From positions 1-21,103 of the IMG/VR virus record IMGVR_UViG_3300035228_000190: a DNA stretch of 21,103 nucleotides; one strand, 5' to 3'. The translations under genes were made by a program, and so were the position numbers. The notes under the pieces were generated by a model that was not told where the DNA came from, did no database searches, and saw only the letters and a program-made list of their open reading frames with translations. Shown piece by piece: positions 437 to 18,884 of the stretch. Origin of the DNA: a virus. Position 1 is the first letter of the stretch; each line of letters opens with the position of its first letter.

Positions 437-1116
437 CAAACATTAACCTCTGTTATTAGTTTTTCTACGTCTTTTCTTTCTGCAAACACATGATAATGAC
501 AGTGAATTGGCATACCAGGTTTTGCCTGGACAACTACTTCATTATTTGTTGCTCTCTTCAGTACAAGACCCTGGTCAGAACCAACTGGTGTCAGTGATAC
601 TGTAATTGTTCTGGGATCTACCAATTCTCTCCACACATCTGGCAATTTTATAGTGTCATTATTTCTAAGAACACCTCTCACATACACTGCATTCTCTGGT
701 CCTTCCAGACAAGCATAGATTAAATTTGTGTTTGGTAGTGTTGGGTGTGGTATAGCAAAGTTCTTAACCTTTGCCATAAGTACTTCTGTATAGATTACTT
801 TACTCTTAATTACCCTAACTGTCAATAGTAAATCAACTTTTAGAAAACTTTTGATTCTTGCAAATGTTGTGGCAAATAATGCATAGAATGGTGAGGGCAA
901 CATCTCTGGATTGCCAGTCTGACCAACCATCACTGACCCCATCTCAAATGGGTTGCCTTTGCCAGCAACACCAGGAAACTGTGAAGGATCTCCAACTAAC
1001 TCTGGACCTTGGATATATGCAGATCCTCTGACCTTTGTGGGACCACGACCTAAGATATCAGGCTTTCCTCCACCACATTGAAATTGCCCCCCTGCTGTTA
1101 CATCTGTTGCGTTCAT
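436..1116 (-). CDS. Cyanophage virion structural protein with C-terminal fibre-type beta domain
   Basis: This 226-aa protein has two parts. The N-terminal half (about 1-115) is rich in Gly and Pro and includes GSAYIQGPELVGDPSQFPGV, a style I associate with cyanomyovirus tail structural proteins. The C-terminal half (about 116-226) begins AKVKNFAIPHPTLPN, then has CLEGPENAVYVRG and HCHYHVFAE. The pattern 'K-F-x-I-x-HPT ... CLEGPE-x-x-VYxRG' recurs in many phage tail fibres as a beta domain of unknown activity. The start is backed by AGAGGAGAATT just before the ATG; this ribosome site overlaps the stop region of the needle gene upstream. It is probably a distal tail or baseplate-tip component. 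Host receptor binding is possible but not shown by the sequence. Confidence 0.7.
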   Translation of the reverse strand: MNATDVTAGGQFQCGGGKPDILGRGPTKVRGSAYIQGPELVGDPSQFPGVAGKGNPFEMGSVMVGQTGNPEMLPSPFYALFATTFARIKSFLKVDLLLTVRVIKSKVIYTEVLMAKVKNFAIPHPTLPNTNLIYACLEGPENAVYVRGVLRNNDTIKLPDVWRELVDPRTITVSLTPVGSDQGLVLKRATNNEVVVQAKPGMPIHCHYHVFAERKDVEKLITEVNV

Positions 1117-1125
1117 AATTCTCCT

Positions 1126-1719
1126 CTAAAGTTCTGCTTTAATTCTTTCTACATGACTAGATCCACCCTTGGGACCAAGACTTGTTTTTGCAGTGGCTGC
1201 AGCGTCAGCGCAAGACATGAAACCCCCATATAGATTTAGCACAGTTTTTCCAGTGACATCTACAGTCTTTTCTGATACAATCTTCACTTGAACTGGTGCA
1301 TTAATATCTATCATCTGGTCAGAATTAAGAATAATCTTTTCAGTTGCTGTGACGTTCACATTACCTCTAGTATTAGATCCACCAGTAGCAGTAATTTCAA
1401 CATCAAGACCTTCAATTCTTACCTTACCACTTGGTGCTCTCAATACCAGGTCGCCACTGACTGCCTCAACATAGACACCAGGGATACCTTTACCAACATT
1501 GTCACCTGCTTTGATTTGACATGAACCAGGTGCTCTGATGATTGTTCCATTCTTTCTATGGTCCTTCCCTGTAGCACACAACTCAATATAATGCTTCCAA
1601 TTCTTAAAATTTCTGATAAGAACAGCATCAATCTGCCTATCAGATGTTAGGTGGCCAAATTTAATCTCTCCATCTATTGTGCCATATCTAATTCTATAAG
1701 GATTGACTGGATCTGACAT
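1126..1719 (-). CDS. Beta-helix needle protein resembling the C-terminal domain of gp5
   Basis: This 197-aa protein has a compact N-terminus (about 1-75, with FKNWKHYIELCATGKDHRKN). From about residue 80 to 165 it shows short alternating beta strands: VEAVSGDLVLRAPSGKVRIEG, then VNVTATEKIILN, and MIDINAPVQVKIVSEKTVDV. This resembles the triple-stranded beta-helix needle formed by the C-terminus of T4 gp5 and by VgrG spikes. Its ATG shares one base with the stop of the gp5-like gene (TAATG), which suggests coupled synthesis in similar amounts. I infer that it forms the membrane-piercing tip below the gp5-like OB domain, as a separate polypeptide. An alternative is a small adaptor that sits on the spike. 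Confidence 0.6.
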   Translation of the reverse strand: MSDPVNPYRIRYGTIDGEIKFGHLTSDRQIDAVLIRNFKNWKHYIELCATGKDHRKNGTIIRAPGSCQIKAGDNVGKGIPGVYVEAVSGDLVLRAPSGKVRIEGLDVEITATGGSNTRGNVNVTATEKIILNSDQMIDINAPVQVKIVSEKTVDVTGKTVLNLYGGFMSCADAAATAKTSLGPKGGSSHVERIKAEL

Positions 1720-4700
1720 TAAAAGTTACCTACACAATCTATTACTTGAACTACCTTCTCAGGATCTTCAAATTCTATCTCCCTATCTATACAATGTTTT
1801 GGCAAAAGTACTGCATTATATCCATTGTCTGAATCAATAGTAATAGTAGGAAGTTCTTTGAATCCTTCACCAGATTTAATTACATTAACACCAATGATTC
1901 TACCAAACTTATCAACTCTAAGAGTTGCTTCTGCTCCTCTGTCTGGTGTAATGATAACAGGATCATTTGGTTCATATCCAAATCCAGGTGACTGAACAAT
2001 AATGTCACAAAGATAAAGAAGAATAGAATAAGCAACAGCATCATCAGCAAATGCGCCAGCATCTTCTACCAAATAGGGTGTAGTAAAGCACCCTGGTTTA
2101 CTGACAGTATAAGGTGATCCACCATTAATACGTTCACCACCACCTTGTTCATCATTAGTTTCAGTAACCACAAATGTTCCTGGTGGAAGTTCAACTGTGT
2201 CTCCAGCCTCTACACAGAAATAATTACCTGCTGGGATTGGTGTTTCAATTCTACCATCTGATTTTACCACAATAGTATCACCAGGATTTGACCAAGTTCT
2301 ACCATCACCACCCTTACTTCCATCAGGACCAGAAATAAAACCACCACCAGACTGAATCACAATCACATCAACAATACCAATATCACCAACAGGTACTGGT
2401 GCAGGTACTAAAATATTTGGAAGATTTGGAACACCAACAACTGGAATAGGAGCAGCAACACCAGGACCATCAGGTGGTGATACTGGATCTAATCTATACA
2501 AACAAGTGTTATTCTTTACATTCCTAAACTTACCTTCTGCTGCAGTAACAACCAAGTCAAGATAATCTCCATCAGATACCCACTTAGTTTCTACTTCTTG
2601 TGCAGTTACTGGTACTGGTTCAGATAATTGTCTTGCGTCAAGAGCATTGAAAACACCATTTTGATCAAATCCATTACCAAAATCATCATCATATCTAATT
2701 CTCTGTTGGACTTGAGTTGGAAGTGGACCACTATCCTCAATAATAAATCCAAAATCATCAGAATTTCCACTAAAGGTTACAGGATATCTGTTACCTGCTC
2801 TAAATGTTCCTGTAACATATTGAAGACCAGTTGTATCCCCAGCTGATCTTGTCAAAACTATGGGAGCACCATCTGTAGCTACTGTTATAGACTGTGTATA
2901 TCCTGCTCTATTGGATCTATCATCCCATTCCCAAGAGAAATCAATCTCAACTACATCATTTCCACCTACCAAATAGACAAGACTATTTCCATTTCTTAAG
3001 AAAATTCCTCCTGGTGGAATCTCCTCTGCACCTGTTGCATCAACAGTTTCGTTTGCTTTAAAAGCATCATCTAATCTTACAGTAGATCCACCAGCATCAA
3101 TTCTTAATGGGTTAGGACAAGGAGTTCCATCAGGCAAAAATCCTTGGACCAAATAATCTTTACCAGGAACAACACATTCAATGTAACTAGTTCCCCCATC
3201 ATTCTCTCCACCACTAACATCATCACCTGTGTAATCCCATCCAGTAATAAATGATGGATCAGAATCAACTAATCTGAAAGTAAATGTATTAGAAAGAACA
3301 GCAGACCTTGTAACTGTAAACTCTTTGTCTAAGCACTCAGGAGGTTGTTCCTTTCCAAATCCAGTAGGACCTACACCATAGATTGGCGATGAATCACCAA
3401 CAGGTCCAAGAGGAACAGGAGAAAGAGAATTGGGACCATTAGCAGGGAAAGGATAGTTCTGTGGACCAAATGGACCTAACCCAATATTGGGTGGTGCTAG
3501 TGCAGGGGTTCCTCCTCCAGTTCCGCCAATAGGTGTTCCATCAGTAGGTATTCTACCAAAGACTGGTCTCAATACTGTACCATTACCTTTACCACATATA
3601 TCAGTAACTTCTGCTCTAACACTTTCATTATATCCTGCACCAAAGCTGACCATATCAACTCCAATGACATCACCAGCAGCACCAATCACTAAGTTGCCAG
3701 CTGCTCCTTTGCCATTACTACCAAAGAACTCTAAGATAGGTGCCCCACACAGCACCTCTCTGACATTACATCCATCTCCTAAATTGAAAAGTTGATCTAA
3801 ATCAACATCAGTGACCATATCAAGGTTGTCAAGTGCTTGCAAACCTAAATTTTGAGTCTCTTGGAACAATCCTTTTGCTCTATCTGTAATGGAAGTCAAA
3901 TCTCCTTTACTAATTAGACTTCCACCTGAAATAATATTCCAATCATTAATTTCTGAGCACTCTGGTCTATCATCACAAGACAGGAATGAAATAAGTTGAT
4001 CAATCATTCCTAATACATCTCCACCTAAATCAAGAGCGCCCTCACCAATATCAACAGCGCCAGAGATCATACTAGACAGACCAGCAAACATTCCTTCAAT
4101 GATACCACCCAGGGTTCCAAAGATTCCACCAATAAAGTTATCAACAAAACACTTAGAAACATTGATGACTCTATCAACAGCATCTTTGAGGAACTTAACC
4201 ATCAATTGAACCAATTGACCCATTATCTTCCTAAAGAAGCAAGCAATAGTATCAAGAATAGTGCTTGATGTTTTCTCTACGAGAGATCTCTCATTGGGAA
4301 ATGCAAGGTCATAAGCAAACTTAAGTGCTTGATTTGTCTTATTCTCTACAAACTTTTCAATCTCAGCATAAACTACCTTAAGACCACCTGCAATCTGTTC
4401 AGCATACTCCTCAAGTTTCTTATTGATCCATTCTTCCTTCTCTGCCAGATCTTGAAGGGCACCCTTTTCAAAATCGTATAGTCCTTTTTTTGCTGACTCT
4501 ACATCTCTAATAAGATTTCTAATGGACTGTTGTATTTTACCAACAGGAAGAGGTTCACAAGTTTTAGGTTGTGCTAGTGCAGCATTACTCTCATCTGCTT
4601 GATCTTCATCTAACTTTGATATTGTTACGTCTTCAATACCTGTTTTCTCTTTACCATTTATCTTTGAACCCGCTTCTTTTGAATTTCCAGTACCAGATTT

Positions 4701-5183
4701 GCCTTGAGACAATGGTGCTGCACCTGCAGGAACAGGTTGATTAGGTGGCAATCCTCTATATGGAACAAACCCAGAAGAAGAAACATTCTTCATCACTGCC
4801 TGATAGTCATTGTATCCAATACAACCCATAATAACAGGTTGCTGACCTTCTTCTCCGTCTAAAAAGAAACCATAGACAAAAGTCCCTTGTACTATATTGG
4901 ATGTCTGACTAAAAGATCCCCCACCACCAGAAGTGACAGGATACATGAGAGTTGCCCAAGGCAAATCGCTATCAGGCAACTCATCTTTGTCAGCAGTATG
5001 GTATCCCATAATGCGAACTTTATATCTCTCACCATAACCCTTATATTTTTCGTTACCAGTTCCTCCCACATTTGTATCTGGGAGATTTTCTTGCCACTCT
5101 TTAGCAGGAGCAACCTGACCAATCCACCACTGGAATCCGTCTCTTCCTACAAAATGATTCTGAAATAGTCCTTGTTCTATCAT
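1719..5183 (-). CDS. gp5: gp5-like baseplate hub protein, very long and without lysozyme domain
   Basis: The 1154-aa protein begins with a gp5/VgrG-type OB-fold region (about 1-150: FQWWIGQVAP, GERYKVRIMGYH, FVYGFFLDGEEGQQPVIMG). Known T4 gp5 follows its OB domain with a lysozyme domain and a needle; neither is visible here. Residues about 215-430 are helical and partly hydrophobic (KKLEEYAEQIAGGLKVVYAE, FIGGIFGTLGGIIEGMFAGL). A Gly/Pro-rich linker follows (about 550-625), then several beta modules. A loose motif 'G-x-I-x-x-V-x-V-x-x-x-G-x-G-(Y/F)' recurs near residues 501-520, 929-951 and 1090-1115. The ATG directly follows the stop of the gp27-like gene. The role as central hub trimer is inferred from the OB region and the gp27 neighbour; the function of the long C-terminal extension is unknown. 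Confidence 0.8.
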   Translation of the reverse strand: MIEQGLFQNHFVGRDGFQWWIGQVAPAKEWQENLPDTNVGGTGNEKYKGYGERYKVRIMGYHTADKDELPDSDLPWATLMYPVTSGGGGSFSQTSNIVQGTFVYGFFLDGEEGQQPVIMGCIGYNDYQAVMKNVSSSGFVPYRGLPPNQPVPAGAAPLSQGKSGTGNSKEAGSKINGKEKTGIEDVTISKLDEDQADESNAALAQPKTCEPLPVGKIQQSIRNLIRDVESAKKGLYDFEKGALQDLAEKEEWINKKLEEYAEQIAGGLKVVYAEIEKFVENKTNQALKFAYDLAFPNERSLVEKTSSTILDTIACFFRKIMGQLVQLMVKFLKDAVDRVINVSKCFVDNFIGGIFGTLGGIIEGMFAGLSSMISGAVDIGEGALDLGGDVLGMIDQLISFLSCDDRPECSEINDWNIISGGSLISKGDLTSITDRAKGLFQETQNLGLQALDNLDMVTDVDLDQLFNLGDGCNVREVLCGAPILEFFGSNGKGAAGNLVIGAAGDVIGVDMVSFGAGYNESVRAEVTDICGKGNGTVLRPVFGRIPTDGTPIGGTGGGTPALAPPNIGLGPFGPQNYPFPANGPNSLSPVPLGPVGDSSPIYGVGPTGFGKEQPPECLDKEFTVTRSAVLSNTFTFRLVDSDPSFITGWDYTGDDVSGGENDGGTSYIECVVPGKDYLVQGFLPDGTPCPNPLRIDAGGSTVRLDDAFKANETVDATGAEEIPPGGIFLRNGNSLVYLVGGNDVVEIDFSWEWDDRSNRAGYTQSITVATDGAPIVLTRSAGDTTGLQYVTGTFRAGNRYPVTFSGNSDDFGFIIEDSGPLPTQVQQRIRYDDDFGNGFDQNGVFNALDARQLSEPVPVTAQEVETKWVSDGDYLDLVVTAAEGKFRNVKNNTCLYRLDPVSPPDGPGVAAPIPVVGVPNLPNILVPAPVPVGDIGIVDVIVIQSGGGFISGPDGSKGGDGRTWSNPGDTIVVKSDGRIETPIPAGNYFCVEAGDTVELPPGTFVVTETNDEQGGGERINGGSPYTVSKPGCFTTPYLVEDAGAFADDAVAYSILLYLCDIIVQSPGFGYEPNDPVIITPDRGAEATLRVDKFGRIIGVNVIKSGEGFKELPTITIDSDNGYNAVLLPKHCIDREIEFEDPEKVVQVIDCVGNF

Positions 5184-6524
5184 TTATTTAATCTTTACAC
5201 CGTAAGAATCTCTAATCAATCCAAGGCTTGTAAATGTATCTGATGGCGTTACTCTATGACAAACATGTGCCACTAGATAGTCCCCACTGGTTTTTTTATT
5301 TATATCCTTTCCTGAACCAGTATTACCTCTAACCTGAGGGAAATCACATCTTATCACATCACCTGCTTTAATACTAAAATCTCCTTTAATTGTAACATTG
5401 GTCTGGATAGTAAACAACTGATTATATCTCATAATAGATTGAACCATTGTTCCTTCTGCATCAAAGTTTGCTTTAGTGGGATCTTCCTTCCATGCTTTAA
5501 GTTGTTCTTCTGCAGTATCTCCAGGAGAATTATAACCCACATCCCTAACAGCACTCATTAGTCTAGTTGGAGATGCTGTGAATTGTTTTGCTACCAAGTT
5601 ACCACTCTCTTCACTTTGCTTACCAGCAGTTGTGATCTTATTTTTCTGATTTTCAATACCATACTGTGTTACTTTATAATTAAATGATACAGGATCATAG
5701 AAAATAGTTCTGTTATTATAAGCACCAAGAGTAAGGTTTTGACCTAGATCAATATCAGTATCAATAGTATAGTTTATGATACTAGCATCATATCCTTCTG
5801 GAACTCCTGTAGTATCACTAAATGCATATTTTTTTTCAGATTTCTGCTTAAATAGACCATCAATGGACTTGAAATGAATAGTATCACGTGTCTGATAAAA
5901 CAGGTAACCTGCTGCACCATTTAATGTATTACCACCACTTCCACCACTTGCTGATACTTGTGGAACAGATTTAGATGCTAACCAAGTGCAAACATAATAT
6001 GGTTTTCTATCATTACCAAAGAAATTATAGTTAAGACTAGTGGTGTCTATATCAAGTTTAGAATCTGTTTGCAAAACATCCTTAAGAATTGAAGATACAT
6101 GAGTTGAGATAGGTGCTTCCTTATATCTCTTCACAACTCTTACCTGATCATTAGCAAAGTATTCACGTGATGTTAGATCAAGAAAGTAAACATCCTTTTG
6201 TGTTCCAGGTATAGCATTTCTTACCCTATTAACATATAAACCATCCCCAAATTTTAAAGTATTATCATAATTATCTTCCATCTTGATATCAATTCTCTCT
6301 CCACCTCTGATTGGTAGGTTATCTAAAAGACCATCAATAGCACCACCCTTTGTATTGCCAGTCTCCACCACAGTAACAGTTGCTGTAACATGATTAGACA
6401 AAACACTTTCATAGTATGAGAACTCTGTTACTGCAGCAGACATATCTACAGTCTCTCCATCATTAGATTGAATAGAGAACTGTAGAATATTAGCGGGTTC
6501 TGATGCTGAGTTATGTTTTGCCAT
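5184..6524 (-). CDS. gp27: gp27-like baseplate hub protein
   Basis: This 446-aa protein is a little longer than T4 gp27 (391 aa). It starts with a beta-rich domain (ILQFSIQSNDGETVDMSAAV, SNHVTATVTVVETGN) and has the hub-type sequence YFLDLTSREYFANDQVRV near residues 115-135. It ends in another beta-rich part (IRCDFPQVRG, GDYLVAHVCHRVTPSDTFTS). In T4, gp27 trimers join the tail tube to gp5 and form the channel torus. Here the gene lies directly before the gp5-like gene, as expected for a partner made in equal amount. Its ATG overlaps the stop of the upstream gene by one base (TAATG). The assignment rests on fold-level resemblance and gene order more than on a signature motif. Confidence 0.8.
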   Translation of the reverse strand: MAKHNSASEPANILQFSIQSNDGETVDMSAAVTEFSYYESVLSNHVTATVTVVETGNTKGGAIDGLLDNLPIRGGERIDIKMEDNYDNTLKFGDGLYVNRVRNAIPGTQKDVYFLDLTSREYFANDQVRVVKRYKEAPISTHVSSILKDVLQTDSKLDIDTTSLNYNFFGNDRKPYYVCTWLASKSVPQVSASGGSGGNTLNGAAGYLFYQTRDTIHFKSIDGLFKQKSEKKYAFSDTTGVPEGYDASIINYTIDTDIDLGQNLTLGAYNNRTIFYDPVSFNYKVTQYGIENQKNKITTAGKQSEESGNLVAKQFTASPTRLMSAVRDVGYNSPGDTAEEQLKAWKEDPTKANFDAEGTMVQSIMRYNQLFTIQTNVTIKGDFSIKAGDVIRCDFPQVRGNTGSGKDINKKTSGDYLVAHVCHRVTPSDTFTSLGLIRDSYGVKIK

Positions 6525-8713
6525 TAACCTTGCTTGTATAGGAATCCCATCAACTTGGATTTGTAATAACTATTTACCAAAGATCTGGTAGACCCACCCA
6601 TCACTGTAACACCACCAGAACTACCACCCATCATAGGAGATTCTTGACCCCCTCCTACTGGATATGGAACACTCACTGTCTGAGATCCACCACCCTCATA
6701 GGATGCTCTTGATGCAACAGAGGAAGACTGTGCTATAGGAGATACTGTAGGCGAAACCTGAGTGCCTGTCAACTCTCCAGCGTCTAATTTTCTAAAGTAT
6801 TCATCTTTCTCTGCTTGTGATGCATTTTCTCCTGGTATCTGATCCATAGGAACAGTCAGTGGTTTATTGATAGGAGTAACTTGTGGAGCAGAAGTAGACC
6901 CACTCAGATCAAGTGACTTTGCTGCGTTCATATATTTGGCAGCATTTCCATCCTTATACGCCCCCCATGCAGCAAAACCTTGAGAATCAAAGATTGCTTT
7001 TGCTGCTCTAGCATTAGTTATCGGATTAAAGAGATCTTCATTGGAGCTAAGACCAAGTTGACGTCTTCTCTCAACACCAATCTCATCAATCATGTTAATC
7101 TGCCATAGACCATATGAGTTATCTCCTGTTGCCCTGTTATCATTATGTGCTCTGTTGTTAAATGTAGATTCACCACCAGCAATTGCAGCCATGGTCTTTG
7201 CTTGCTCTTTAGTAAATCCCGCTTGCATGGCATACCCTGCCATCTTTTTCAACTTTGCATTAACATCTGCACCCATATCAATAGGACCAGTTCCATTTGC
7301 TTGAGTCACTGCATCAGGATTCATTCTAGGGTCATCTTTCATTATCTCAGCAGTTGCGTCTTGTTGTTCTTTTAGTTTTTGTTTCATCTGCTTTTCTGTT
7401 ATCCCTGAATCACCAAGAGGACTCAGACCTTGGCCTGTTAACTTATTTGCAAAATCACTGTAAAGTTTTTTAGCAAAGAAGTCTCCCAGACCTGCACCTA
7501 CAAAACCACCAATTGCTGTGCCAAGAAATGGAATGGGAATGAGACCTGTTCCAATTGCTGCACCAATAGAGAATCCAAGAGAACCACCAATGGCACCAAC
7601 AATTGCTCTATCAAGTGTCTCTCCCATTGCCAAATCAATACCAATAGCAATAAGTGAACCAACTAATGGTATTCCTCTAATACCTTTTGAGAATTTAGAT
7701 AATCTTGTAGCACCAGACTTTCCAAATTTCTTTATTGCTGCTAAAGAAGGGTTAGTAGCAGATCTCAATGCACTCTTTGTTGCAGCATTAGTTGCAACTC
7801 TTGTTCCTGATTTTGCTACACTTTTTGCTCCACTTTTTGCTGCACTTTTTGCTGCACTTTTTGCTCCAGATGTAGCAGCAGTCTTCACTGCCTGATGCAT
7901 TTTCTTGGCAAAGTTGAATATGCCTAAACCTAAGTTCTTTAATCCCTTACCAACAAATTTTCCGATACCAGTAATTCCTTTCTTTAAACCTCCACCAAGT
8001 TTTTTAAGAAGCGGCGTGAATACTTTTGCTACAGTTCTTGTTGCTGCTGATATAGGTTTGTTTAATGCTATCAATCCCCACCTAAGGAGGTTCATCTTAT
8101 TGTCAAATGATTCTCCAAACTCAGTAAAGAAACTCTTGATTGACTCAAAATTCTTTAAAAATAGTACAGCAAGACCACCCATCAAAGTATTGAGTAAGAA
8201 GTTAAAAATATTAAACTTCTTTGCTGCTCCAAGAATAGATCCACCAATAGCACCAGACCTAGAACTACCACCTTCTAAAGTTGCTTCTCTACCTTCTCTC
8301 TTTGCTTTTTGTGCTGCCTTGTCTTTGTTTTTAGATTCCTTTTTCTTTTGATTATACTGCCCTTTGAATGCCTTATCCAAAGAGGAAGTAAGTCCAACAA
8401 TATTATCAAGTTGTTGAGTTAATTTTTCATAACTTACATTACTACCATCAGAAGATACTTCTGCCTTAGGTACACCTGATGATCCTCCTGAAGAAGAAAC
8501 ACCACCTGCATATTTTTGAATTGGTTTTACTTTTGCTTTAGTTGAAGACTCTGTAGATGATCCTTTCTTTACAAGAGATCCACCTTTCTTCTTATCCTTA
8601 CCTTTGCCAGTAACAAAATCCTTTGCAGTTGATGCTGCTTTCTTTTTTACTACGCTCTTTGTAGTATTTGAGAGCAGACCTTTTGCTGCACCTAATAGTA
8701 GAGGTAAAGCCAT
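6524..8713 (-). CDS. Tape-measure-like virion protein with lysozyme/transglycosylase-like domain
   Basis: The 729-aa protein has a Lys/Ser-rich N-terminus (about 1-135). A hydrophobic segment around 165-185 contains LLNTLMGGLAVLFLKNF. A basic amphipathic stretch follows (about 215-330) with Ala-Lys-Ser repeats, then glycine-rich membrane-like segments (about 345-410: GAIGGSLGFSIGAAIGTGL, AIGGFVGAGLGDFF). Residues about 485-600 look like a lysozyme/SLT domain: MAAIAGGESTFNN with likely catalytic Glu515, then NSYGLWQINM, NARAAKAIFDSQGF and WGAYKDG. I infer a tail-lumen protein that is ejected, inserts in the envelope and cuts peptidoglycan. It replaces the lysozyme missing from the gp5-like protein. 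T4 has gp29, the tape measure, in this part of the cluster. The C-terminal 100 residues are Ser/Gly/Pro-rich. Confidence 0.75.
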   Translation of the reverse strand: MALPLLLGAAKGLLSNTTKSVVKKKAASTAKDFVTGKGKDKKKGGSLVKKGSSTESSTKAKVKPIQKYAGGVSSSGGSSGVPKAEVSSDGSNVSYEKLTQQLDNIVGLTSSLDKAFKGQYNQKKKESKNKDKAAQKAKREGREATLEGGSSRSGAIGGSILGAAKKFNIFNFLLNTLMGGLAVLFLKNFESIKSFFTEFGESFDNKMNLLRWGLIALNKPISAATRTVAKVFTPLLKKLGGGLKKGITGIGKFVGKGLKNLGLGIFNFAKKMHQAVKTAATSGAKSAAKSAAKSGAKSVAKSGTRVATNAATKSALRSATNPSLAAIKKFGKSGATRLSKFSKGIRGIPLVGSLIAIGIDLAMGETLDRAIVGAIGGSLGFSIGAAIGTGLIPIPFLGTAIGGFVGAGLGDFFAKKLYSDFANKLTGQGLSPLGDSGITEKQMKQKLKEQQDATAEIMKDDPRMNPDAVTQANGTGPIDMGADVNAKLKKMAGYAMQAGFTKEQAKTMAAIAGGESTFNNRAHNDNRATGDNSYGLWQINMIDEIGVERRRQLGLSSNEDLFNPITNARAAKAIFDSQGFAAWGAYKDGNAAKYMNAAKSLDLSGSTSAPQVTPINKPLTVPMDQIPGENASQAEKDEYFRKLDAGELTGTQVSPTVSPIAQSSSVASRASYEGGGSQTVSVPYPVGGGQESPMMGGSSGGVTVMGGSTRSLVNSYYKSKLMGFLYKQG
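7819..7866. repeat. Four tandem 12-bp repeats coding for Ala-Lys-Ser motifs
   Basis: Four consecutive 12-bp units match CACTTTTTGCTS on the plus strand, with only the last base varying. A degenerate unit lies just before them. On the coding (minus) strand they encode the repeated Ala-Lys-Ser-(Ala/Gly) run of the tape-measure-like protein. The unit is a multiple of three, so slippage would change protein length without breaking the frame. Confidence 0.85.
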
Positions 8714-14845: not shown

Positions 14846-15514
14846 ATGTCACTACCTTACTTCAGATATCTTCCTAACATTGATTATGTGAGTCGCTTAC
14901 CAGACTCTAAGTATATTGGTGACTATGTTCAGGTAAAGAATCTTTTTAGAAGAGCAAAGATTAATCCTGAACTCTTTCAAAATATCAACTTCTTTACTAA
15001 GTATACTATTATTGGTAATGAGAGACCAGACAATGTTGCTTATACCTTATATGATAACCCATACTTAGATTGGTTAGTTCTTCTTGCTAACAACATTATC
15101 AATGTAGAAGAAGAGTGGCCATTAACTCAGCAATCTTTCTTCAACTATATGTTGAGTAAGTATGGATCAGAGACTGCTTTCAATGAACCACATCATTATG
15201 AAACTTCAGAAGTAAAGGATAGTAATGGCAGGGTTGTTATGAAAAAAGGTCTTGAAGTTCCTGATGGTTACTCTATCACATACTTTGATAGTGGTAATAA
15301 TCAATTAGTGACTAATAATAACATATCTATAGTAGTCACAAACTATGATTATGAAGATAAGATTCAAGATAGTAAAAGAAATATCTTTGTGGTGAAAGGT
15401 CAATATCTTTCTCAGATAATCAATGATCTAGAAGATGGTCTTCTCTATAAGAGTGGCAGTTCTCAATATATTTCTGAGAATATCGCAAAAGCAGATAATA
15501 TTAGACTCTACTAA
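14846..15514 (+). CDS. gp53: gp53-like baseplate wedge protein
   Basis: The 222-aa protein (T4 gp53: 196 aa) opens with PYFRYLPNIDYVSRL. It then shows RPDNVAYTLYDNPYLDWLVL with LANNIINVEEEWPLTQQSFF and LSKYGSE. The sequence 'P-x-x-x-A-x-x-x-Y-x-N-P-x-L-x-W-x-x-L-x-x-N' is the recognisable gp53 core. In T4 gp53 completes the wedge and links wedges around the hub. The C-terminus is more variable here. The gene ends the plus-strand island and is followed by a G/C-rich hairpin. Confidence 0.85.
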   Translation: MSLPYFRYLPNIDYVSRLPDSKYIGDYVQVKNLFRRAKINPELFQNINFFTKYTIIGNERPDNVAYTLYDNPYLDWLVLLANNIINVEEEWPLTQQSFFNYMLSKYGSETAFNEPHHYETSEVKDSNGRVVMKKGLEVPDGYSITYFDSGNNQLVTNNNISIVVTNYDYEDKIQDSKRNIFVVKGQYLSQIINDLEDGLLYKSGSSQYISENIAKADNIRLY

Positions 15515-15521
15515 TAGACAT

Positions 15522-15551
15522 AAAGAAGGGGGGAAACATCCCCCCCTTTCT
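15522..15551. terminator. G6/C6 hairpin between convergent genes
   Basis: A run of six G (15528-15533) pairs with the C run at 15540-15546 across a short AAACAT loop, flanked by A-rich and T-rich sequence. It lies between the stops of gp53 (plus) and the 60-aa gene (minus), and could end transcription from both sides. Confidence 0.75.
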
Positions 15552-15553
15552 AA

Positions 15554-15736
15554 TTATTGAAGAATCCTCCTACAAACTCTCTTACATGAGGCTTGATTTT
15601 CATCGCATTCAATAAGACAGTTATAATAATCGTTGATTAGATTAGATTCCTCAAGGGTCCTATCAAGAGTATGACTCAAACTATCAACTTCTTGCCTCCA
15701 TCCTTCTAATTGGTTGTGTGAAATTAAGTTGTGCAT
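15554..15736 (-). CDS. 60-aa protein with paired CX3C motifs
   Basis: The gene has a strong ribosome site (GGAGG, 4 bases before the ATG) and its own terminator region. The protein is helical: LEGWRQEVDSLSHTLDRTLE, then SNLINDYYNCLIECDENQ and CKRVCRRIL. Four cysteines at 40, 44, 51 and 55 form C-x3-C-x6-C-x3-C, a pattern that fits a helical hairpin closed by two disulphides or a metal site. I do not know its function. It sits alone between two terminators, separate from the baseplate and replication blocks. A gene this short would be doubtful on length alone, but the ribosome site and ordered cysteines argue that it is real. Confidence 0.7.
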   Translation of the reverse strand: MHNLISHNQLEGWRQEVDSLSHTLDRTLEESNLINDYYNCLIECDENQASCKRVCRRILQ

Positions 15737-15888
15737 TTTACCTCCACAAATAACTTAGACATCATATAGATGTGATCTTTATGAACCTCCATAATTCTAG
15801 TGTATCTATACAGATTTAGAGCATTTTTCAATTGTGTTGAAATAAAAATTTATGCCTACTTATTAATACCTATGAACTTAATGGGGAC
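15737..15888 (-). other. Non-coding leader of the 60-aa gene
   Basis: About 150 bases without a convincing gene lie between the gp32 terminator and the 60-aa gene. They are AT-rich and contain the ribosome site of that gene at the left end and one weak promoter-like octamer at 15803-15810. I see no tRNA or clear RNA fold. Confidence 0.5.
15803..15810 (-). promoter_or_regulatory. Possible promoter for the 60-aa gene
   Basis: On the minus strand this reads TATAGATA, one base from the late consensus. A TTGAAA lies 15 bases upstream, which is short for a sigma70 spacer. Either reading would give a leader of about 60-70 bases. Confidence 0.3.
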
Positions 15889-15922
15889 AAAAAAAATGGT
15901 GGGAAAAAATTCCCACCATTTT
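15889..15922 (-). terminator. Intrinsic terminator of gp32
   Basis: A perfect 13-bp inverted repeat (left arm 15893-15905, right arm 15910-15922) has a 4-base loop. In the minus-strand transcript it is followed by a run of eight U (15896-15889), overlapping the outer A-U pairs. It begins 23 bases after the gp32 stop. The near-perfect A/T symmetry means it could also act on the plus strand. Confidence 0.9.
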
Positions 15923-15944: not shown

Positions 15945-16889
15945 TCAACTATCTGCTAGTTTAGCAAAGTAACTCATAGGATCGTCATCTTCGTCAACAG
16001 AAGGACTAGGTGTACTGTCTTTAGCAGCTGCTTTTGACTGTTGATATGAGGACTCAAGCTTGCGCATGACGTCTTCTTCACTAACTGTCTTTTGCTCTGT
16101 TGCTGCATAGTTGTCGTACTCTGTTTCTTCTTGTGTGCTATTACGAATATTCTTATTGCCTAAGACATAATCCATACGCTTCTTCAAGTCTTCATAAGAC
16201 TTAAATTGGTCAGCAGCAGTAAAGGCAGACAGAGAATACTGCTTCTTCCAGATTGCTTCCATAGCATCATCATCAGTCAAGACTGGACCAACAGCAGCAA
16301 ATTCACTAGAATCATAATTCCAATAACCTGCAACCTTCTTCAACTTCAGCTTGAAGTTAGCACCTTGCCAGAAGTCAAAGGGATTAATAGGAGTCTCATC
16401 CTCAAACTCAGGTTGCATAGCCTCCATGATCTTATCAAAGATCTTCTTACCAAACTTATAGAGGAATACTCCACCCTCATTCTGAGGATTAGCAGGATCC
16501 TTTACAACATAGATGTTTGCATAGAAGGAAAGTTTACGTTTCTGCTTACGAACAGTGTCCTTATCTCCATCATTACCAGTATTCCACAGTTCCCTATTGA
16601 GTTCTCCAACAGGGTCCTTACCACCAATAGTAGTAAGAGAATTCTCAATGTACCATCCACCAGGACCCTGGAAGGCATGAGAGAACAGTTTTACCCAAGG
16701 GAGATCTTCTCCATCAGGTGCAGGAAGAAAACGAATAACTGCATATCCATTGCCAGACTTATCCATCTCTGGCTTCCAGAGGCGCTCATCAGCACCACCT
16801 GCCTTGTTATTCATCTTGTCAGCTTCTTTAACTAGTTTACTAGTCAAAGCGCCCAAAGAACTTTGCTTTTTAAGGTCTGAAAAACCCAT
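15945..16889 (-). CDS. gp32: gp32-like single-stranded DNA-binding protein
   Basis: The 314-aa protein (T4 gp32: 301 aa) has a basic N-terminus (KKQSSLGALTSKLVKEADK) like the cooperativity domain of gp32. The OB core includes YAVIRFLPAPDGEDLPWVKL, then FSHAFQGPGGWYIENSLTTI and KRKLSFYANIYVVKDPANPQ. The acidic C-terminus (VDEDDDPMSYFAKLADS) fits the partner-binding tail. The core coats single-stranded DNA and organises replication, recombination and repair. No cysteine is present in the whole protein, so the His-Cys3 zinc site of T4 gp32 is absent. It has its own promoter-like sequence and a hairpin that holds the ribosome site, and ends at a perfect terminator. Confidence 0.93.
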   Translation of the reverse strand: MGFSDLKKQSSLGALTSKLVKEADKMNNKAGGADERLWKPEMDKSGNGYAVIRFLPAPDGEDLPWVKLFSHAFQGPGGWYIENSLTTIGGKDPVGELNRELWNTGNDGDKDTVRKQKRKLSFYANIYVVKDPANPQNEGGVFLYKFGKKIFDKIMEAMQPEFEDETPINPFDFWQGANFKLKLKKVAGYWNYDSSEFAAVGPVLTDDDAMEAIWKKQYSLSAFTAADQFKSYEDLKKRMDYVLGNKNIRNSTQEETEYDNYAATEQKTVSEEDVMRKLESSYQQSKAAAKDSTPSPSVDEDDDPMSYFAKLADS

Positions 16890-17953: not shown

Positions 17954-18223
17954 TCACAGAGGTAGTTTAGCATGTGATGTTCTCTTCAGCAAGTTCAATT
18001 CCATTGCCTCACACTTCAGTTTTTCCTTCAGTGGTTTAGAAATCAACTTAGGAATTGACTCCATCTCAACATTATTTTTCTCACAAAAATGCACAATAGC
18101 ATCAATATAACTCATGCCATTATTTTTGTGAGCAATAGATTCAATCTCTTCTGTAAATTTACGAGAGCAGTAAAACTTGCTTTCTAAAATTTTGTCAATA
18201 CTGTTCTCTTCAGGTTGGGGCAT
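17954..18223 (-). CDS. gp33: gp33-like late transcription co-activator
   Basis: With the start chosen at 18223 the protein has 89 residues (T4 gp33: 112). It contains NNGMSYIDAIVHFCEKNNVE, then SKPLKEKLKCEAMELNLLKR. T4 gp33 has a similar core, G-M-S-Y-(L/I)-x-A followed by a helix and a C-terminal E-A-x-x-x-N-L-L. I prefer 18223 over the upstream in-frame ATG at 18328 because AGGA lies just before it and the overlap with the exonuclease gene falls to 14 bases. gp33 bridges the host RNA polymerase and the sliding clamp for late promoters. The C-terminal tail here (SHAKLPL) is short and not acidic. Confidence 0.8.
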   Translation of the reverse strand: MPQPEENSIDKILESKFYCSRKFTEEIESIAHKNNGMSYIDAIVHFCEKNNVEMESIPKLISKPLKEKLKCEAMELNLLKRTSHAKLPL

Positions 18224-18884
18224 ATTCCTGTAGTTTGAATTCAACAAACTCTCTAATATATTTTGAGAGTAAATTGATGTACTTTCTTTTGTCGTACTCT
18301 TCATAAATTTCAACCTCGCCATTTTCACATGACATAATAATTACAAACTTCTTTACCATTATACCAGTCATCTCATATAACATGCAAGCATATGCTGCAC
18401 ATTGTACAAAATGAGAGTCAATCCACTTTCTAGGTTTTGGTTTCTTTGCTGTCTTGAAGTCAATAACAGCAAGTTCTCCATCATATTCAGCAATGCAATC
18501 AACACTACCAGCAACACCTAGTTCATAACTAAACAAAGATTGTTCAATAGCATGGATATTTCCTATCTTATCTAGATCACTCTTAGCTTGCTTGAAAAGA
18601 TACTCTGATAATGGTTGAACAGGAGGAAGCTTCCTATTCTTTAAGTAGCATTCAGCAAGGGTATGCATATCAGTGCCCCTACTTGTTGCTTGTTTAGTAA
18701 CTTTGTTTGCTTCCTCATTACCAACCTTTGCTCTCCATGATCTGAAGACTTCACGATTGTAGTGACTAATGACTGAGGTAATAGATACTAACTTCTTACC
18801 ATCAGGTGTATCATAATATCTAACTCCATCAATCATCTCCCTGGAGAGAGATGGATAATCAATTTCAATATGGTTAAAAATCAT
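18210..18884 (-). CDS. PD-(D/E)XK exonuclease, RecB/MGME1-like
   Basis: The 224-aa protein has the motif order of RecB-family single-strand exonucleases. It has SRGTDMHTLAE (motif with His74), Glu114, GVAGSVDCIAEYDGELAVID with Asp129 and Asp142, Lys144 in DFKTAKK, and FVQCAAYACMLYE as the Q-x-x-x-Y helix. No cysteine cluster of Cas4 type is evident. Cyanomyoviruses commonly carry such an exonuclease next to replication genes. Likely roles are recombination, DNA end processing or breakdown of host DNA. The ATG overlaps the phoH stop by 4 bases (ATGA). The catalytic set is complete, so activity is likely. Confidence 0.85.
   Translation of the reverse strand: MIFNHIEIDYPSLSREMIDGVRYYDTPDGKKLVSITSVISHYNREVFRSWRAKVGNEEANKVTKQATSRGTDMHTLAECYLKNRKLPPVQPLSEYLFKQAKSDLDKIGNIHAIEQSLFSYELGVAGSVDCIAEYDGELAVIDFKTAKKPKPRKWIDSHFVQCAAYACMLYEMTGIMVKKFVIIMSCENGEVEIYEEYDKRKYINLLSKYIREFVEFKLQEYAPT

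Follow-up and report, generated by a model that had tools for sequence, protein, structure and literature searches.

The window, that is, the whole 21,103-base stretch that makes up IMGVR_UViG_3300035228_000190, comes from a T4-like cyanophage whose gp53, gp32, phoH-like, thyX and baseplate genes match those of Synechococcus phages. On its minus strand, positions 15554–15736 form an ORF with an ATG start that encodes a 60-aa protein, the translation of which carries four cysteines in the arrangement C40-x3-C44-x6-C51-x3-C55. A ribosome-binding site, GGAGG (15741–15745, minus strand), lies 4 nt before the ATG. Further upstream on the same strand, we read a second GGAGG (15786–15790), which is also apparent in the leader alignment, and a promoter-like TATAGATA ... 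TAGAAT (15794–15810), recognised from motif counts in the leaders of relatives. The gene is convergent with gp53, encoding a baseplate wedge protein (14846–15514, plus strand), and is followed by a terminator-like hairpin (15526–15548, minus strand) whose plus-direction version would serve gp53. Upstream of the gene, another terminator-like hairpin (15893–15922, minus strand) follows gp32, which encodes the ssDNA-binding protein (15945–16889, minus strand). Our hairpin scan returned nine terminator-like rows between 14500 and 17000, compared with 1.5 in shuffled sequence, and the nine are overlapping versions of these two sites.

When re-read, the sequence bore out the ORF, the four cysteines, the ribosome site and the flanking terminators that an earlier, sequence-only reading of this DNA had described. 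That reading had also placed the gene at the joint of the structural and replication blocks, which is accurate for the window, where it separates gp53 from gp32, but does not hold as a general rule because relatives of the gene sit elsewhere. The order gp53, 60-aa gene, gp32 is also found in ACG-2014d, with one extra small gene. Elsewhere in the window, the first listed start of a frame resembling the late transcription factor gp33 (17954–18328, minus strand) overlaps an exonuclease gene by more than 100 nt; as the profile covers only residues 47–124 of this frame, its true start is probably internal.

The 60-aa protein matches PHROG_665 along its whole length (E 4.7e-26, profile positions 1–56 of 56). 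This family is equivalent to T4-GC 363 in GenBank notes and to gp134 of Synechococcus phage Syn9, the feature that lies under the match, and is catalogued without a function. Thus, while the gene had previously been said to belong to no named family, it does fall within numbered ones, neither of which has a named function, and on the profile match the window gene is an ordinary PHROG_665 / T4-GC 363 member. We found no report on the function of this family in the literature, and a Pfam search of the protein returned no match. Weak matches to phrog_19023, phrog_28452 and phrog_6270 were also obtained; a search with phrog_28452 gave no match in 19 phage records and none in the controls, and is therefore uninformative. 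By contrast, PHROG_665 gave one significant match in each of the same number of phage records searched (19/19), two of which had a second match at chance level (E 0.02–0.04). In a control at E ≤ 1, PHROG_665 matched 2 of 14 unrelated genomes, which we take as chance at that limit.

The sequence-only reading had called for a search for homologues, and these were identified by tblastn (E ≤ 10) in 359 phage records out of 50,697; by name, 289 are Synechococcus, 47 Cyanophage, 16 Prochlorococcus and 7 Marine. For scale, gp32 was found in 377 Synechococcus and 61 Cyanophage records, so that the 60-aa gene is present in approximately 336 of 438 records under those two names, a comparison of record totals by name in which records are not paired individually. 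Two peptide patterns further identified five relatives in genome contigs, all within metagenome-assembled genomes (MAGs) of bacterial or archaeal, non-cyanobacterial title. As at least three of the five carry cyanophage marker genes, we read all five as contigs of phages that were probably binned into the MAGs. A more diverged host relative could have escaped the two patterns. For S-TIM4 and S-MbCM7, the nearby listed feature lies in another frame or on the other strand and is not the family gene. In KJ019095, an ACG-2014f isolate, the family gene occurs at two places owing to a tandem duplication (854–7745 of locus L101) that includes psbA and psbD.

Selection on the gene is purifying, with pN/pS values of 0.02–0.25 against ten relatives and a median of 0.15 over 202 pairs. 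Among 60 records sampled, 15 carry no annotation of the gene where the match lies, as in P-SSM2, S-PRM1, Bellamy and P-SSM3, which could be taken to indicate a chance ORF or an annotation artefact. Given these pN/pS values, the conservation of the leader and terminator, and the occurrence of the gene in 359 records, the probability of this reading is close to nil and we rejected it.

The lone position of the gene between terminators, noted previously for the window, proved to be general in the family. A terminator-like hairpin lies within 130 nt after the stop codon in 193 of 207 homologous loci, compared with 3 of 207 shuffled sequences and 2 of 185 control stretches taken 1 kb downstream, and an upstream terminator at -250 to -60 was found in 87 of 193 relatives. 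The genomic surroundings are more varied. Using marker genes, we located 45 of 313 copies between gp46 and a peptidase gene, 60 where gp23 is followed by gp3, GC49 or 2OG, 50 with thyX as the nearest downstream marker, and 18, including that of the window, between gp32 and gp53. The remaining copies lie beside cytosine methyltransferase, psbA, psbD, talC or purN, or, in 28 of the 313, have no marker, and in total there are at least six distinct settings. One significant copy in each of the 19 records searched, purifying selection, the number of settings and the frequency of the downstream terminator together indicate that the gene behaves as an autonomous cassette. The family gene carries its own terminator and occupies varied sites in related genomes, with a promoter-like box as its putative promoter.

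This box and other elements of the leader were counted in 243 distinct leaders, 211 of which have a Shine-Dalgarno (SD)-like motif at -18 to -4. A strict form of the box, TA[AGC]ATA[AG]T-N1-5-AGA[AG]T, is present in 110 leaders versus 0.14 in shuffles, and a looser form, TA[AGC]ATA, in 167 versus 41 in shuffles. The window copy, TATAGATACACTAGAAT, lacks [AG]T after the first box and so meets only the looser motif. The late promoter of cyanophages is given as NATAAATA in PMC2984593, where middle expression is attributed, tentatively, to early and late promoters that overlap.

The second GGAGG of the window corresponds to a feature that is widespread in the family, in that 208 of the 243 distinct leaders have an upstream SD-like site with an ATG or GTG 38–70 nt before the main start. 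In 137 leaders a stop occurs at codon 2 or 3 in the frame of this upstream start, in contrast to 5 and 20 in the other two frames, and 30 codon variants are represented. More than half of the distinct leaders (137/243; e.g. loci L021, L064, L067 and L088) therefore contain a start-stop mini-ORF of one or two codons. The bias persists among 100 dissimilar leaders, where 84 have an upstream start and stops number 53 in frame versus 3 and 8 in the other frames. Other genes in the same loci have an upstream start in 75 of 345 distinct regions and an in-frame stop in only 8, five of which precede uvsY. An in-frame stop within two codons follows 2 of 2 psbA and 5 of 15 uvsY upstream starts, which are small numbers. 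Counting against the mini-ORF, 71 of the 208 leaders with an upstream start have longer upstream frames, some of which overlap the main start. In the window, triplet 15780–15782 reads ATA and thus cannot serve as the upstream start; the lineage to which the window belongs is without an upstream ATG, and another locus (L001) has one that opens a frame of six codons. Single-sequence folds of representative leaders revealed no common RNA structure, the alignment-wide consensus fold was empty, and Rfam gave no match in the window.

We then considered the cysteines, whose variation among homologues would have counted against the sequence-only reading. The protein set comprised 313 loci and the window (itself one of the loci retrieved, L102), giving 210 distinct proteins, 209 of which are at least 45 aa long. 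Since the retrieval patterns partly contained cysteines, the counts favour cysteine keepers: all four are kept in 193 of the 209 distinct homologues, C2 and C3 are jointly absent from 15, and one (L186) is truncated where its contig stops. The count includes 21 loci translated from tblastn matches, for which no exact pattern was needed; 20 of these have four cysteines and one (P-RSM1) has two. No such variation was seen for C1 and C4, which are constant in all 208 complete distinct homologues, but C2 and C3 do vary in part. No complete distinct homologue has lost a single cysteine from a pair, and the 80 nearest viral-contig relatives all have four. In the two-cysteine forms, C2/C3 are replaced by S/A, A or E/D, or L/G. 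The tree is weakly resolved; on it the two-cysteine forms call for three changes, but a single origin is not rejected (p-AU 0.82), and the joint loss may be a single event. The spacing between the cysteine pairs is 6 residues in 126 distinct proteins, 7 in 59, 9 in 7, 5 in 1 and 8 in 1. C1 and C4 are 13–16 residues apart, and there is no CXXC motif. In an alignment of 84 rows, M1, H2, N3, Q9, Y37, C40 and C55 are invariant.

With these 84 rows, AlphaFold2 predicted helices at residues 7–43 and 48–59 (mean pLDDT 90, pTM 0.59), in agreement with the helical hairpin proposed from the sequence. The four-residue turn suggests that the two predicted helices pack in an antiparallel fashion. The cysteine spacing is symmetric (40+55 = 44+51), as it would be if C1-C4 and C2-C3 pairs bridged two antiparallel helices, and the hairpin is probably locked by its cysteine pairs, with this nested pairing the one that we infer. 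Searches for relatives were largely negative. PDB sequences gave three weak matches (E 0.76–1.4) with no hairpinin among them, Foldseek against the PDB gave a best E of 2.1 and thus no significant relative, and VIA-align gave a best Z of 4.6, with none at 5 or above. Against viral models, the best Foldseek match was A0A8S0HWD0 (54 aa, 47% identity, E 1.8e-3), which presumably belongs to the same family. The structure and sequence searches provided no relative with a known partner and no functional lead.

The conservation of all four cysteines in most members, together with the conserved N-terminal Met-His, could also be explained by a small zinc- or copper-binding protein with the twin CX3C motif as ligands. 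In 15 of 209 distinct members, however, C2 and C3 are missing and the rest are retained, and fold resemblance to a metal protein is weak (zinc resistance protein 3lay, Foldseek E 6.2). That C2 and C3 are lost together, in combination with the confidently predicted hairpin, favours nested disulphides over a four-cysteine metal site, which we regard as very improbable. Scarcely more probable, in our view, is a thiol-disulphide carrier in which C1 and C4 would do the exchanging and reducing power would be handed on to an enzyme of the phage or host. The constancy of C1 and C4 would suit such a carrier, as would some loci where the closest marker to one side is a glutaredoxin gene, but glutaredoxin is mostly 0.3–2.7 kb away in the examples listed, Foldseek found no resemblance to thioredoxin-fold proteins, CXXC is lacking, and the C1-C4 distance is that of a staple.

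The 60-aa protein has no evident signal peptide and is probably cytosolic. In the light, a disulphide would be easily reduced in the cyanobacterial cytosol, which counts against a hairpin stapled by disulphides. Disulphides are natural outside the cell, and the main rival to our interpretation is a minor virion or assembly protein that is made late, reduced in the cell, and stapled by its disulphides when oxidised in the particle or after lysis. The late-type promoter box in many leaders and the settings inside blocks of head or tail genes (gp23|X|gp3, gp53|X|gp32) are consistent with this, and 41 proteins are listed as detected in the S-SM1 virion in PMC3037559, 18 of them newly found and hypothetical. 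The S-SM1 copy of the family gene, on the other hand, is annotated merely as hypothetical, and other settings are regions of metabolic or nucleotide genes (psbA, psbD, talC, thyX, purN), whereas virion genes usually cluster together. We consider a virion role unlikely.

The mechanism that we consider best is a protein-protein interaction module that responds to redox state and is directed at a partner from the host or the phage, and we believe it to have about an even chance of being correct. Here, the gene would be a one-gene transcription cassette of T4-like cyanophages, composed of the promoter-like box, leader, ORF and terminator. Its small product has three parts. The conserved peptide MHNLxSxNQL at the N terminus is joined by a linker, the length of which varies, to the predicted C-terminal antiparallel helical hairpin; this would be closed by nested disulphides, with C1-C4 always kept and C2-C3 dispensable. 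The N-terminal peptide and a face of the hairpin would dock on a host (or phage) partner in middle or late infection. If the module needed a closed C1-C4 bond for its stability or activity, the partner would be held according to the redox state of the cell. A host-directed role, as originally suggested for this gene, is plausible. The fuller version, in which a redox-stapled hairpin cassette engages a conserved cyanobacterial target from many genome positions with its output tuned by the start-stop or two-codon minigene, is rather unlikely to be right in its entirety.

The family gene is found in many T4-like cyanophages, is under strong selection and forms its own transcription unit wherever a terminator is found, and so it likely matters in infection. 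The hosts concerned are the most abundant marine photosynthesisers, and the gene has no assigned function and is often unannotated. Because the inner cysteines go missing together, the proposed structure is a testable claim, and the start-stop mini-ORF, found through frame-specific stops and with its 30 codon variants, offers a natural test bed for translation control by minigenes. If the fuller version above is borne out, minigenes of this kind would serve generally in phage leaders to control translation, and selection would maintain their reading frame rather than their sequence.

The proposed cassette resembles phage morons, which are likewise single genes with their own promoter-like start and terminator at varied sites. 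The term moron comes from temperate phages, whereas the gene described here is widely kept in lytic T4-like phages, among other genes at many positions. The protein itself shares its cysteine motif, found in the window protein and 193 of 209 relatives, with the alpha-hairpinins, which are plant defence peptides whose scaffold is also that of scorpion kappa-hefutoxins. These are described as having a C-X3-C-Xn-C-X3-C motif, two antiparallel helices and Cys1-Cys4 and Cys2-Cys3 pairs (PMC7191063). The phage protein likewise has a two-helix hairpin, by prediction, and putatively the same pairing, but alpha-hairpinins are secreted and come from other organisms, we claim no sequence relation, and the phage protein differs in its long first helix and its conserved N-terminal peptide. 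The twin-CX3C helical hairpin is also common to CHCH and small-Tim mitochondrial proteins, although neither mitochondrial-type match was significant (Cox6b profile, E 1.4; TIM22-complex chain 6lo8_H, Z 3.6), there is no mitochondrial import route for the phage protein, and its x6 loop is short.

CP12, the gene for which is reported in cyanophages (PMC3037559), is similarly a small redox-sensitive protein with four cysteines, whose two disulphides are described as stabilising its structure under oxidising conditions (PMC9406205). In CP12 the cysteines pair within each end, 7–8 residues apart, and there is an AWD_VEEL core (PMC9406205), whereas the phage pairs would bridge two helices. Membership of the CP12 family was rejected, as both this core and the CxxxPxxxxC C-terminal pair are absent from the 60-residue sequence. 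Finally, the family leaders resemble that of axe-txe, where a two-codon minigene precedes the regulated gene and is reported to act on downstream translation (PMC8708949). That is a different gene in a different organism, and the phage family often has one-codon start-stop forms, for which a regulatory effect is putative. A minigene of this type is missing from the window leader, its start lost to ATA, but is present in 137 of the 243 distinct leaders of the family.
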